Program-made: the position numbers and the translations under genes | Notes under the pieces: generated by a model | Told to the model about the DNA's origin: nothing | What the model saw: only the letters and a program-made list of their open reading frames with translations | Database searches by the model: none | Shown: positions 1,564-51,717 of the stretch, one piece after another | Position numbering within the stretch: position 1 is the first letter of the stretch | Layout: every line of letters starts with the position of its first letter | From: Bdellovibrio sp. BCCA | GTDB lineage: Bacteria > Bdellovibrionota > Bdellovibrionia > Bdellovibrionales > Bdellovibrionaceae | Length of the DNA: 64,000 nt | Direction of reading: 5' to 3' | Assembly: GCF_037996825.1 (NCBI RefSeq) | Contig: NZ_JBBNAC010000001.1 | Span: forward strand, 496,001 to 560,000

Positions 1564-3771
1564 CTAAAACTGCGTATTTAGCGACTCCAATCTCGCATCG
1601 AAATAATCCGTCACAAGTTCAGAGCTGCCAGTGGTTTTAAGATTCTCGATATCTTCTTGCACAGCCTTAATGACCTTATCGAAATCTAGTGAAATGACCT
1701 GTCCATAAAGCAGTTTCGCTTGCATGTTTTTTTCGAGGTTCGAAATTTTTAAAAGAACATCTCTTTCAAAAACATTTAAGCCACCTTTTTTAGACATGTA
1801 CGTTTCAAGATCCGTGCAGCGATAAGCGACTTCTTTAAGGTTGCAGTGTTCGCGGTCAATGCCGTTCATTTTGCAATTTTTAGATTCGCTGCTTTTGTAG
1901 AAATCAAAAATCTCAGTCGCATTTTGGATCTGATAAGGAGCTGTTTCCATCACCCCGTTTTTTGTAAATCCTTTGCCGTCTCCTAAGTAAGTGTAGCCGT
2001 GCACTTCAGAAAACATAGGAGCGGGAAGAAGTTTTCCGTTTTTGTTGAAACGGCGGAGAGCAACGATATCCCCTTTTTTCATTTCTTCCTTTGAAACCTG
2101 TTTGCATAAAGGCGAATCAATCACGAATGCAAACTCACTTCCTAAAGTGTGGTGAACAGCTTCAGAGATGTTCGCAAGGTACGTTGCTGAGTTCCAGCAA
2201 TTGGGTCCGCCTTTTTTTGCGTAGTTACCAAGAAGGTGGTCGATCTTTCCTTGTAAAAGAGCGGCGTTTAAATCGGCATAACCTTTTGAAAGAACCGGAG
2301 CGGGCGTTGGTAGAACTTGAGCGGTCTTAATGAACAGTTCGCGCACCTCGGAAGCTTTCAGATGAGGAAGCTCGCTCCAGAGTCGTGCAACAAGGTTCAC
2401 CATATAAGGTGTCGCCATGGAAGTTCCGGAGTGAGCGATCAGTCCTCCGCCAAGACTTGCCGCGCTCACTTTTACTCCGGGTGTAAGAATATCAACGCTG
2501 TTCTTTCCGTAATTCGAGAAGTAGGCCATTTTGGCATTTTGCGGAGTCACTTCGCTATAATCCGAAGCATCTAAAGCACCAACTTTAAGAACATTGGGTT
2601 GAGTGAAACTTGCGGGATACTGACGGTTTTTATAGTCGTCGAGATCTTGCTCAGAATTTCCGGAAGCTACAACGAATAACGTATCGGGATTGTTGTCGAT
2701 CATGCGGCTATAGGCTTTGATAGCATCGCGCAGACCTAAGAGGTCTTTGTTATCGCTTGGAAGTCCGATGCTCATGTTCACGACTTTCACTTGATGTTGT
2801 TTTAAGAAAGCGGAAATACGATCAACATAAGCTGCTTGCGTGTAGTCGCCAGCAAAACCAATGAGCGCAGCATTATCAAGACCACGAATGGCGATATGAG
2901 CCACGTGAGTTCCATGAGAAAGGGGGCGGTTGTCTTTTTGAAACCCCGTGGAGGATTCTGTTGGGAGGCCTATGTTGCGAACTTGCTCCCATCCAAAGTT
3001 ATCATCGACCCAACCGTTTTTATCGTTATCGATACCATCAATAGGATCGTTGGGATTATTCCACCACTTCGCCACCAAGGCCTCGTGGTTATAATCAAAA
3101 CCTGAATCAATAATGGCGATCAAAAATTTATTTGAGTTTTCTCTTTGGCGTTTTAAAATCTCGATTTCTTTTTCTGATTTGCCTTGGGCGCGCAGAGTTT
3201 TTACGAGGTCGTAGGGTTCATACATAGAGAATTGGGAGATGATTTTCCCTTGGGCATTTTTTTCGACGAAGGCATAAGGCTTTTCTTCATTGTCTTTGTA
3301 TGAAAAGAAGACTGAAGAAACCAATTGATTTTTGTCGTTCAGATAATCTTTTTTAAGAATGCGAAAAGGTTTTTTAGTTTCGTAGTTTTCGATGTACTCA
3401 AACTTGTAGGGGATTTCTTCCGTGTAAACCCAGCGGCGTAAGCGTACTGAATTTTCAGTCGTGTCGTTCTTCTCGTTAAGACCGGTCCACTCTTCTTGCC
3501 ATTTGATTTGTCCAAAAGATTCTTTTTCAACGGAGATATTGGCCTTGATCACATGGCCTGGTTCTGGATACTGATAGCGTTGCCATGACGTGAAAATTCC
3601 ATCCGTGCTATAGAAGCGTTGTTCAACAAGCTGACTGTCTTGATAGTAAGATTCGTTGGCGGTGTTGCCGTTGGCGAATTTTTCTTTTTTAACTTCGACG
3701 GCGGCGTAAAGATGTTCCTGTCCCAAAATGAGAAAACTTAGAAGAACTTGGAAAAAGATTTTCAAAGTCAC
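1564..3771 (-). CDS. Secreted subtilisin-like serine protease (S8 family)
   Basis: 735 residues with a GTG start preceded by a GAGGTG ribosome site. An N-terminal signal peptide (about residues 1-24) points to export. Residues 25-210 form a poorly conserved region with repeats of the type YxDSQLVEQRFY that recall MORN-like repeats. The S8 domain runs from about 215 to 490, with Asp222 in IDSGFDYNHE, His286 in SHGTHVA, the oxyanion Asn of VASGNS and Ser451 in SGTSMATP, so the triad is complete. A 240-residue C-terminal extension with several Cys has no family I recognise. A degradative or processing role during predation is plausible but inferred. Confidence 0.9.
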   Translation of the reverse strand: MTLKIFFQVLLSFLILGQEHLYAAVEVKKEKFANGNTANESYYQDSQLVEQRFYSTDGIFTSWQRYQYPEPGHVIKANISVEKESFGQIKWQEEWTGLNEKNDTTENSVRLRRWVYTEEIPYKFEYIENYETKKPFRILKKDYLNDKNQLVSSVFFSYKDNEEKPYAFVEKNAQGKIISQFSMYEPYDLVKTLRAQGKSEKEIEILKRQRENSNKFLIAIIDSGFDYNHEALVAKWWNNPNDPIDGIDNDKNGWVDDNFGWEQVRNIGLPTESSTGFQKDNRPLSHGTHVAHIAIRGLDNAALIGFAGDYTQAAYVDRISAFLKQHQVKVVNMSIGLPSDNKDLLGLRDAIKAYSRMIDNNPDTLFVVASGNSEQDLDDYKNRQYPASFTQPNVLKVGALDASDYSEVTPQNAKMAYFSNYGKNSVDILTPGVKVSAASLGGGLIAHSGTSMATPYMVNLVARLWSELPHLKASEVRELFIKTAQVLPTPAPVLSKGYADLNAALLQGKIDHLLGNYAKKGGPNCWNSATYLANISEAVHHTLGSEFAFVIDSPLCKQVSKEEMKKGDIVALRRFNKNGKLLPAPMFSEVHGYTYLGDGKGFTKNGVMETAPYQIQNATEIFDFYKSSESKNCKMNGIDREHCNLKEVAYRCTDLETYMSKKGGLNVFERDVLLKISNLEKNMQAKLLYGQVISLDFDKVIKAVQEDIENLKTTGSSELVTDYFDARLESLNTQF

Positions 3772-14673: not shown

Positions 14674-14957
14674 AATTTGTGTTTCGAAATGACACAGTAT
14701 TTAATAGAATTGAAGTATTAGTGTCTGACACATGGATGTGCCAGATACGCGGGGAGGGTGAGGAAGAGATCGCGAACCATGGAAGGTCAAGAGTCAAAAG
14801 TTTCTCGCAGGAAACAGGAGCAATAGGTCAGCACGCACCAAGGATTGGTGAACATGAGCCGAAGCTACACTCTCAGAGTCAAGCACAGGATGTGCATGAT
14901 TCTCCGACTCAACTCCCCTTTTTTTCTCTTCTTTCGACAGCGGACATTGCTACGTGT

Positions 14958-20820: not shown

Positions 20821-20902
20821 TTTTGTGTCCGAATATCAGTTGCCGTTTAAGTTTTAAGAAAATCTCTTGCTGTTAAGTCGAGCCGTAATTCTTGCAAAAA
20901 AG

Positions 20903-21179
20903 AAAAGCGGCCTCAAAGACCGCCTTCTTATGGACGAGAGACCCCTCTAAACAAGGAGGCTCTCTATGAAAAGCAAACCCTCACAGGAGGCTTTTCGGCA
21001 GTTTAAGAAATTTCTAAAGCTGCTCGTGCTGATTTTGTTTCTTTTAGTCAGCTCATGCAGTTAAGACGGTAAACTATCCATAGGGCTTAGGGCTACTTCG
21101 ATAGGCTTCCGGCTCGTGGGCGAGTCGAGCTTAAAACTCGGGACTTATCACGGACGAAGCGGTTTTTGAGGCCGCTTTT
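20903..21179 (+). ncRNA. Candidate structured RNA locus with small peptide (type I toxin-like layout)
   Basis: This interval sits in a 496-base stretch without a normal gene. Its two ends are near-perfect reverse complements: 20903-20917 (AAAAGCGGCCTCAAA) pairs exactly with 21165-21179, and about 20 of 22 pairs hold when extended. Each end also folds locally (GCGG/CCGC) and has a T-run pointing outward, so the left copy reads as a terminator on the - strand and the right copy on the + strand. Inside are a hairpin GAGAG...CTCTC (20935-20965) that holds the ribosome site of the small ORF, and two hairpins around 21113-21140. Overlapping sense and antisense transcripts are the inference. No promoter is obvious. 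Confidence 0.45.
20966..21064 (+). CDS. 32-residue lipoprotein-signal-like peptide
   Basis: ATG at 20966 with a perfect AAGGAGG ribosome site 6 bases upstream. The peptide has a basic polar start (MKSKPSQEAFRQFKKF), a strongly hydrophobic stretch (LKLLVLILFLLV) and ends in the lipobox-like VSSC followed by one Ser. If processed, almost nothing would remain but a lipidated Cys-Ser. Alternatively it is a membrane-active peptide like type I toxins, or a leader peptide. The ribosome site is partly buried in a GAGAG/CTCTC hairpin. Function unknown. Confidence 0.55.
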   Translation: MKSKPSQEAFRQFKKFLKLLVLILFLLVSSCS

Positions 21180-21265: not shown

Positions 21266-22174
21266 ATGAGAGTGGTCTGGAGCGTTCTGATTTTATTCTT
21301 AAGTTATTCCGCACATGCTGCAACAGCAGAGTCGTGCACAACCGTGGATCTTCGTAAAGATTTCGGACCGATTCGCAATCAAGACGGTGTGGGTTGGTGT
21401 TATGCTTTTTCTGCGGCGGATATGATTACTTTTAAAAACAAAGGCCGCGCTTACGTTTCTGCTTCTGACATGGCAACTCAGTATATCAGTCAGCAAAACG
21501 TTTCTCTTACAAGCGGACCCATTGTTACTTTCGGCGGTGGAGTCCCAGTGCAGGCAATGAAAATGGCCGCCAAAAAAGGTGTGTGCACAGAGGCGTCCGT
21601 TCCTTCTGAGGTCAATCAAGGAAGTGATATCTACGAAGCTTATTACAATCTTTTCCGCATCTCGAAATCTATTCAGACAACGGGGCGAGGAAAAGAATAT
21701 TGCGCCGGTGCCGCTCAAGCTTATCAAAAGTTTTTCCCGAGTAGTTCTCCGCAAGAGATCGCAAAGACAATTGCGACGGAGCCTCCATGGCAAGTTGTCG
21801 CAAAACTGCAGAGTAAAAACTGTCCTACTCGCTACAGTGCAGGCTTTAATGAAAACGATGTGACGGCAGAAACGAACAAAGCCAAGATACCGCAAGTTAT
21901 TAAAAATCAATTCGATCAAAAAAAACCCGTGATGATTTCTTATCCTATAAAGCTCATCATGAAAAAACATCCTACGGCTGAGGGCATGCACGCGAGTGTT
22001 TTGGTGGGAAGAAAGTTTAATGCGAAAACAAAAAAATGCGAATATCTGATTCGCAATTCTTTTGGACGTAGCTGTGACGGCTACAACAAATCTTTAAAGT
22101 GTGAATCAGGAAATATCTGGGTTGCCGAAAATGACTTATTTGAATCCGTTGCTGATATTACTTATTTTAAGTAG
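21266..22174 (+). CDS. Secreted papain-like cysteine protease (C1 family)
   Basis: 302 residues with a signal peptide (about 1-19, ending AHA). The catalytic Cys45 lies in NQDGVGWCYAFSA with the usual upstream Gln replaced by the NQD context. The catalytic His is near residue 242 (EGMHASVLVG), and the Asn is in LIRNSFGRSCDGY near 263. This is the order and spacing of C1A peptidases. There is no obvious inhibitory propeptide: the mature domain starts almost at once. Its end overlaps the next small secreted protein gene by 44 bases. It probably digests protein outside the cytoplasm; a role in prey digestion is inference. Confidence 0.87.
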   Translation: MRVVWSVLILFLSYSAHAATAESCTTVDLRKDFGPIRNQDGVGWCYAFSAADMITFKNKGRAYVSASDMATQYISQQNVSLTSGPIVTFGGGVPVQAMKMAAKKGVCTEASVPSEVNQGSDIYEAYYNLFRISKSIQTTGRGKEYCAGAAQAYQKFFPSSSPQEIAKTIATEPPWQVVAKLQSKNCPTRYSAGFNENDVTAETNKAKIPQVIKNQFDQKKPVMISYPIKLIMKKHPTAEGMHASVLVGRKFNAKTKKCEYLIRNSFGRSCDGYNKSLKCESGNIWVAENDLFESVADITYFK

Positions 22175-51477: not shown

Positions 51478-51572
51478 TTTGACTGTTTCAATCTGAATGG
51501 TTCAGAAAAAAACTGGACCATGAAACTATGGCGCATTTTGTTAAGACCATTGTACTATCATCTAAAGCTTCT

Positions 51573-51717
51573 ATTGGGGCTGGAGAGGAGGTGGTGCTTA
51601 TGGTTAAAACATCTGACATAACCAAGGCGGAGGTGACGGCTTCTTAGCCGGCTAGTCCTTCGCCTGGATTCTAAAAGAATCATAATCAAGAGCGACCGCA
51701 AGGTCGCTCTTCCATTT
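51573..51717 (+). ncRNA. Candidate small RNA with strong terminator
   Basis: The 352 bases between the di-heme gene and cheA hold no convincing gene. TTGTTA-N17-TCTAAA (51538-51566) could start a transcript near 51573. It would fold into successive hairpins: TGGTTA/TAACCA (51601-51624), a stem CCAAGGCG/CGCCTGG (51622-51667) enclosing CGGCT-TCTT-AGCCG (51637-51650), GATTC/GAATC, and a final terminator. A 15-codon frame at 51600 is possible but unlikely. It does not match a riboswitch I recognise. Confidence 0.45.
51688..51717 (+). terminator. Strong intrinsic terminator with GNRA loop
   Basis: AAGAGCGACC-GCAA-GGTCGCTCTT: a perfect 10-base-pair stem with a GCAA tetraloop, followed by CCATTTTTT. 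Confidence 0.9.

Follow-up and report, generated by a model that had tools for sequence, protein, structure and literature searches.

The hok/Sok modules are known for the pairing of the 5' and 3' ends of the mRNA, for an antisense RNA that lies over the leader and has its terminator at the mRNA 5' end, and for inactivated chromosomal copies. The entericidins and the colicin lysis proteins are small lipoprotein toxins that carry a lipobox and keep tens of residues in the mature chain. The aapA/IsoA modules of Helicobacter pylori, described in a study in which hok/Sok is also discussed (PMC6733600), encode very short toxin peptides and have several members per genome. Their full-length mRNA is locked by a 5'-3' long-distance interaction, hairpins are formed over the ribosome site, one of them with bases of the ORF, a synonymous position of the ORF is fixed for reasons of RNA, and an antisense RNA is present (PMC6733600).

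In the current analysis a locus sharing the features listed for aapA/IsoA has been identified in a window of 64,000 nucleotides of a Bdellovibrio genome comprising a chromosome of 3.80 Mb and a second contig. The antisense RNA and the toxicity of the peptide are predicted ones here, and by analogy the regulation would be close to that of aapA3/IsoA3 in Helicobacter (PMC6733600). The locus differs from aapA/IsoA in belonging to another phylum, in having no similarity in the family libraries, in a sigma28-looking antisense promoter and, in a sister form, a sigma54-looking mRNA promoter, and in the lipobox end of one subgroup. With hok/Sok it shares the end pairing, a predicted leader antisense RNA ending at the mRNA 5' end and the inactivated copies; it differs in that no conserved mok-like overlapping activator frame has been noticed, the peptide is shorter and unrelated, and the conserved 3' hairpin is a different one. 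No peptide or RNA similarity indicative of descent from aapA/IsoA or hok/Sok has been found in Pfam, NCBIfam, Rfam or PDB sequences. A very short lipobox peptide is common to this locus and to the entericidins and colicin lysis proteins, but the chain here stops one residue past the Cys. We consider it probable that the locus belongs to a new family of modules resembling type I toxin-antitoxin systems. No report of such modules in Bdellovibrionota was found in the open literature searched, and a multi-copy family spanning an order of predatory bacteria would carry them into that phylum.

Organisation of the block at 20903-21179

The block is situated between the fliW terminator and the gene of a papain-like protease. 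The original prediction of inverted, near-identical ends around a 32-residue hydrophobic peptide with a hairpin-buried AAGGAGG is borne out. The two arms are 95% complementary over 21 nt, lie 235 nt apart and form 23 pairs when G-U pairs are included, and AAGGAGG (20953-20959) is placed within a stem. Folded as plus RNA, the whole block reaches -108.1 kcal/mol as against -81 +/- 5.1 in shuffles (z = -5.3). The layout is not a product of chance; it recurs in three copies of the same form in the host genome and in 89 loci overall. The features recognised are as follows.

20892-20895, plus strand: TTGC, a conserved -12-like element upstream of the mRNA, without GG in the window copy; its geometry would place the mRNA start at about 20907
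20903-20927, minus strand: putative Rho-independent terminator of the predicted antisense RNA, a hairpin whose T-rich tail reaches about 20895, identified in the scan; minus-strand G-U pairs are kept in the conserved hairpin
20903-20923, plus strand: left arm of the pairing between the two mRNA ends, from the fold, the complementarity of the arms and covariation
20936-20964, plus strand: hairpin enclosing the ribosome site AAGGAGG; as minus RNA, a stem-loop of the predicted antisense RNA
20966-21064, plus strand: ORF of the 32-residue hydrophobic peptide MKSKPSQEAFRQFKKFLKLLVLILFLLVSSCS (then stop), ending in the lipobox V-S-S-C and one Ser; the frame is conserved in all full-length relatives
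20968-20996, plus strand: hairpin within the first codons of the ORF, whose own partner fits better than the arms of other loci
20993-21018, minus strand: predicted antisense promoter TTTAG-N15-CCGAAA, with one mismatch to TTAAG-N15-CCGAWA; its nucleotides are conserved independently of the frame
about 20985 down to about 20895, minus strand: predicted antisense RNA of about 90 nt from that promoter, directed toward the start codon and the terminator
21126-21140, plus strand: conserved 3' hairpin CGAG/CTCG with loop CTTAAAA, both stem sides of which change in relatives
21159-21179, plus strand: right arm of the 5'-3' pairing, supported by covariation, also a terminator-like hairpin followed by a T-run

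Outward-facing terminators at both ends had been predicted as well. This holds for the window copy, where the minus-strand terminator (20927-20903) has been found by the terminator scan and the plus-strand one, GCGG-N9-CCGC-TTTTTT, is visible by eye at the right end, being uncalled because its loop is longer than the limit of the scan. It does not hold as a conserved feature. An A-rich flank at the left arm, corresponding to the U-tract of the minus-strand terminator, occurs in 14 of 58 relatives as against 4 of 58 with a T-rich flank at the right arm, so that the symmetry of twin terminators is a non-conserved property. No sigma70 promoters were found in the block by the promoter scan.

The position of the block directly downstream of csrA-fliW and its GGA motifs, several of them ANGGA, would suit a CsrA-binding RNA tied to these neighbours, and the copies of two further genomes (G001 and G019) also adjoin fliW. 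The other two host copies of the same form (L044, L045) and the sister copies listed lie among unrelated genes, and such a function is exceedingly improbable; the specific idea of a CsrA sponge was dropped as other copies lie elsewhere.

The papain-like protease gene (21266-22174, plus strand) directly 3' of the element has no close orthologue in the genus, the best identity being 36%; the region following fliW therefore varies between strains. A protease-like ORF of similar kind adjoins the copies in L119.

The attack-phase sRNAs and merRNA are structured RNAs of B. bacteriovorus HD100, a related strain, and some are served by FliA promoters (PMC3627812); none of the sRNAs with a printed sequence is the present element. 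Identity with a published attack-phase sRNA was thus rejected, the printed sRNAs being unrelated and the genome taken as HD100, the strain with published RNA-seq, having yielded no family member. Elsewhere in the window, 14719-14921 (plus strand) is 88% identical to APsRNA1 and 51565-51695 (plus strand) is 84% identical to APsRNA2 of HD100 (PMC3627812).

Copies, forms and distribution of the family

A DNA search has revealed two further copies in the host genome, 74-75% identical to the window copy, which bring the lipobox-ended form to three copies there; several copies of a sister form, in which the peptide tail is charged, are encoded in the same genome. Copies of the window form have been identified in six other Bdellovibrio genomes among the 60 relatives searched, and two additional ones in another genus. 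The sister form, uncovered by a profile built from weak matches and filtered for 5'-3' complementarity, is larger in number, has no lipobox and ends in a charged C-terminus, for example ...IIKELL. The iterative search yielded a total of 89 loci. The sister-form profile matched in 51 of the 141 Bdellovibrionales genomes, representing 26 of 66 genera; no further genome matched among the 369 sampled in the phylum, and none sampled outside Bdellovibrionales.

Conservation of the peptide frame in relatives, on which the original prediction depended, has been found. Full copies of the window form keep a frame of 32-34 residues, and a short hydrophobic peptide in a conserved frame occurs across the full-length loci. 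The peptide sequence itself is very variable; only hydrophobicity, one Arg and length are conserved. In decayed copies the Cys or the 3' domain is missing, and a remnant with the 3' domain only is seen in G003 (L055, contig 395, about 2945-3006). Copies stand alone or in tandem, with unrelated genes around them. For the sister form, arrays of two to four tandem copies, spaced closely or by unrelated genes, have been observed in G004 (L118 and L136), G017 (L117), G034 (L119) and G082 (L120).

A known RNA family without an ORF, another of the contrary outcomes named with the original prediction, was not seen. No match was found in Rfam at gathering or relaxed thresholds, nor in Pfam, NCBIfam or PDB sequences; PHROGs gave two stray single-member matches, and plasmid and phage collections queried with one sister peptide gave none. 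The family appears to be undescribed and, as judged from the genomes searched, is apparently confined to predatory bacteria and their relatives in the order Bdellovibrionales.

The dispersed copies, the inverted ends and the sites beside fliW, which hold a copy in some relatives and none in others, could also be those of a mobile palindromic element, or the block could be a non-coding RNA, with the ORF incidental in either case. Frame, start codon and ribosome site are however kept across two diverged forms of the peptide, and copies within one genome are about 25% diverged and hence not recently transposed, which makes an incidental ORF extremely unlikely.

The lipobox with Cys at +1, as read from the sequence, is confined to the window subgroup and absent in the sister form. 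A mature chain beyond the Cys is lacking, the stop codon standing one residue past it in every intact copy of the subgroup. The peptide could accordingly be regarded as the precursor of a pheromone, with signal peptidase II setting free a message, either the signal peptide itself or a lipidated Cys-Ser, and the common ending [ST][SC]C[SG]-stop of all full window-form copies would agree with this. The Cys is nevertheless absent from most of the family, where charged ends are found instead, and no gene recurs beside the copies in the neighbourhoods listed, so that a pheromone is very unlikely. The peptide-signal lipoprotein of the original prediction is compatible with the window subgroup but not as the core function, since the C-terminus is charged and the lipobox absent in most relatives that share the RNA layout. 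An ordinary lipoprotein was dropped for the same sister forms. The conserved core is predicted to be an antisense-regulated hydrophobic peptide, the lipobox ending marking one subgroup.

Covariation and the strand that folds

A first covariance model comprised just 11 pairs and acted mostly as a sequence profile. Helix arms were compared by scoring each arm with its own partner and with the arms of other loci. The pairing of the 5' and 3' ends scored 30.7 with its own partner against 20.1 with others, the 5' hairpin 21.5 against 13.7 and the hairpin within the ORF 14.5 against 11.3; a control region gave 12.4 and 12.3. The gain of the ribosome-site hairpin is small (16.4 against 14.5) because its ribosome-site arm is nearly invariant. 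The end pairing of a full-length mRNA is thus supported by covariation.

The strand that folds can be recognised from the interruptions of a helix. A folding plus RNA allows plus-strand G-U, and a folding minus RNA allows plus-strand A-C, the counterpart of G-U on the minus strand. On the plus strand, 22 G-U and 7 A-C were counted in the end pairing and 3 G-U and 16 A-C in the 5' hairpin; the ribosome-site hairpin has 3 G-U and 11 A-C, and pairs formed by chance are nearly balanced. When 18 close sister loci are aligned, the 5' hairpin has the same bias, with 8 A-C to 1 G-U. The ribosome-site hairpin is even there (6 A-C to 7 G-U) with no clear strand preference, which renders the claim of minus-strand folding weak for this hairpin. 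The G-U to A-C counts of the 5' hairpin and the end pairing differ with a Fisher p of 8e-5, the leader folds better as minus RNA in 53 of 68 loci (p = 1.4e-6; 4.4e-5 after shuffle correction) and the whole element better as plus RNA in 52 of 58 (p = 2.5e-9), values that are optimistic and indicative only because the loci are related to one another.

The plus-strand G-U pairs kept in the end pairing are as expected of an mRNA, and the minus-strand G-U pairs of the 5' hairpin support an antisense RNA that would end at the left-end terminator. Comparison of G-U with A-C also offers a cheap, sequence-only way of telling which strand of a palindromic locus folds as RNA.

Candidate promoters and predicted regulation

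T stands at the wobble position preceding the invariant Arg codon in 86 of 86 cases, and the Arg is always encoded by CGN. In one copy (L002) the nucleotide block around this position is kept despite a shifted reading frame, and comparison of the loci indicates that its conservation does not depend on the protein. The minus-strand sequence of the block is TTAAG-N15-CCGA(A/T)A. The attack-phase promoter consensus of B. bacteriovorus is TTAAG-N16-CCGATA and has been assigned to FliA (PMC3627812). A score of at least 9 of 11 to minus-strand TTAAG-N15-CCGATA is reached by 46% of the loci as against 17% of synonymous shuffles; the spacing is N15 in the loci and N16 in the published motif, and the window copy has one mismatch. 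The block is hence a good candidate, not a proof, for a FliA (sigma28) promoter of the antisense RNA.

Upstream of the sister loci, (A/T)TGCA is preceded by GG exactly 10 nt before the GC in 31 of 47, in the -24/-12 layout of sigma54 promoters; GG at any one other spacing occurs in at most 4 of the 47. The end pairing of these loci begins most often at the +1 predicted from such a promoter, and RpoN is encoded in the host genome. A sigma54 activator site was not found upstream of the sister loci, where only A/T-rich words are seen. In the window subgroup TTGCA is kept, with GG at N10 in 0 of 11. The mRNA promoter of the sister loci may be sigma54-like.

We infer transcription, the promoters, silencing, toxicity and lipidation. 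A plus-strand mRNA of about 275 nt would encode the short hydrophobic membrane peptide and be locked at full length by the end pairing and the hairpin over the ribosome site. From the minus strand an RNA of about 90 nt, probably driven by the candidate FliA promoter, would start within the ORF, cover the start codon and the ribosome site and stop at the hairpin where the mRNA begins, and could keep the mRNA from being translated or hasten its decay. Once this RNA is exhausted, the peptide would be made, insert in the inner membrane and harm or arrest the cell; in the window subgroup lipidation and cleavage by signal peptidase II may occur as well, with a lipidated Cys-Ser as the remainder. The original prediction is upheld in part. 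Between its two readings the type I locus is the better supported, and comparison backs it well through the conserved frame, the pairing of the mRNA ends kept in relatives and separate signs of an RNA from the minus strand over the ribosome site. Multiple copies, patchy presence, decay and empty sites resemble known type I families and are only compatible with toxicity.

Many small membrane proteins regulate partners. An antisense-regulated, non-toxic peptide acting on a membrane protein or on the predatory cycle would fit the developmental role that the suspected FliA and sigma54 link suggests. The very variable peptide, its scattered occurrence and the duplication in tandem and decay of its copies are more in keeping with a toxin than with a regulator that has one fixed partner, and we regard a non-toxic regulator as unlikely.

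The preferred type I-like module extends to a family that spans the order, with an unusual predicted arrangement of promoters. If the promoters are read correctly, alternative sigma factors on both strands would tie a suicide-type module to the alternation of attack and growth. The full proposal is put forward tentatively and with some doubt: a predation-linked family with the antitoxin RNA made by attack-phase FliA, the toxin mRNA by sigma54, and in one branch a toxin that is a lipoprotein signal peptide leaving a lipidated dipeptide.

In two sister copies of the host genome (L108 at C1:672580 and L123 at C1:2575732) similar palindromes are inserted after the conserved TGCA and ahead of the 5' hairpin, and the predicted mRNA promoter should thereby be split from the peptide gene.
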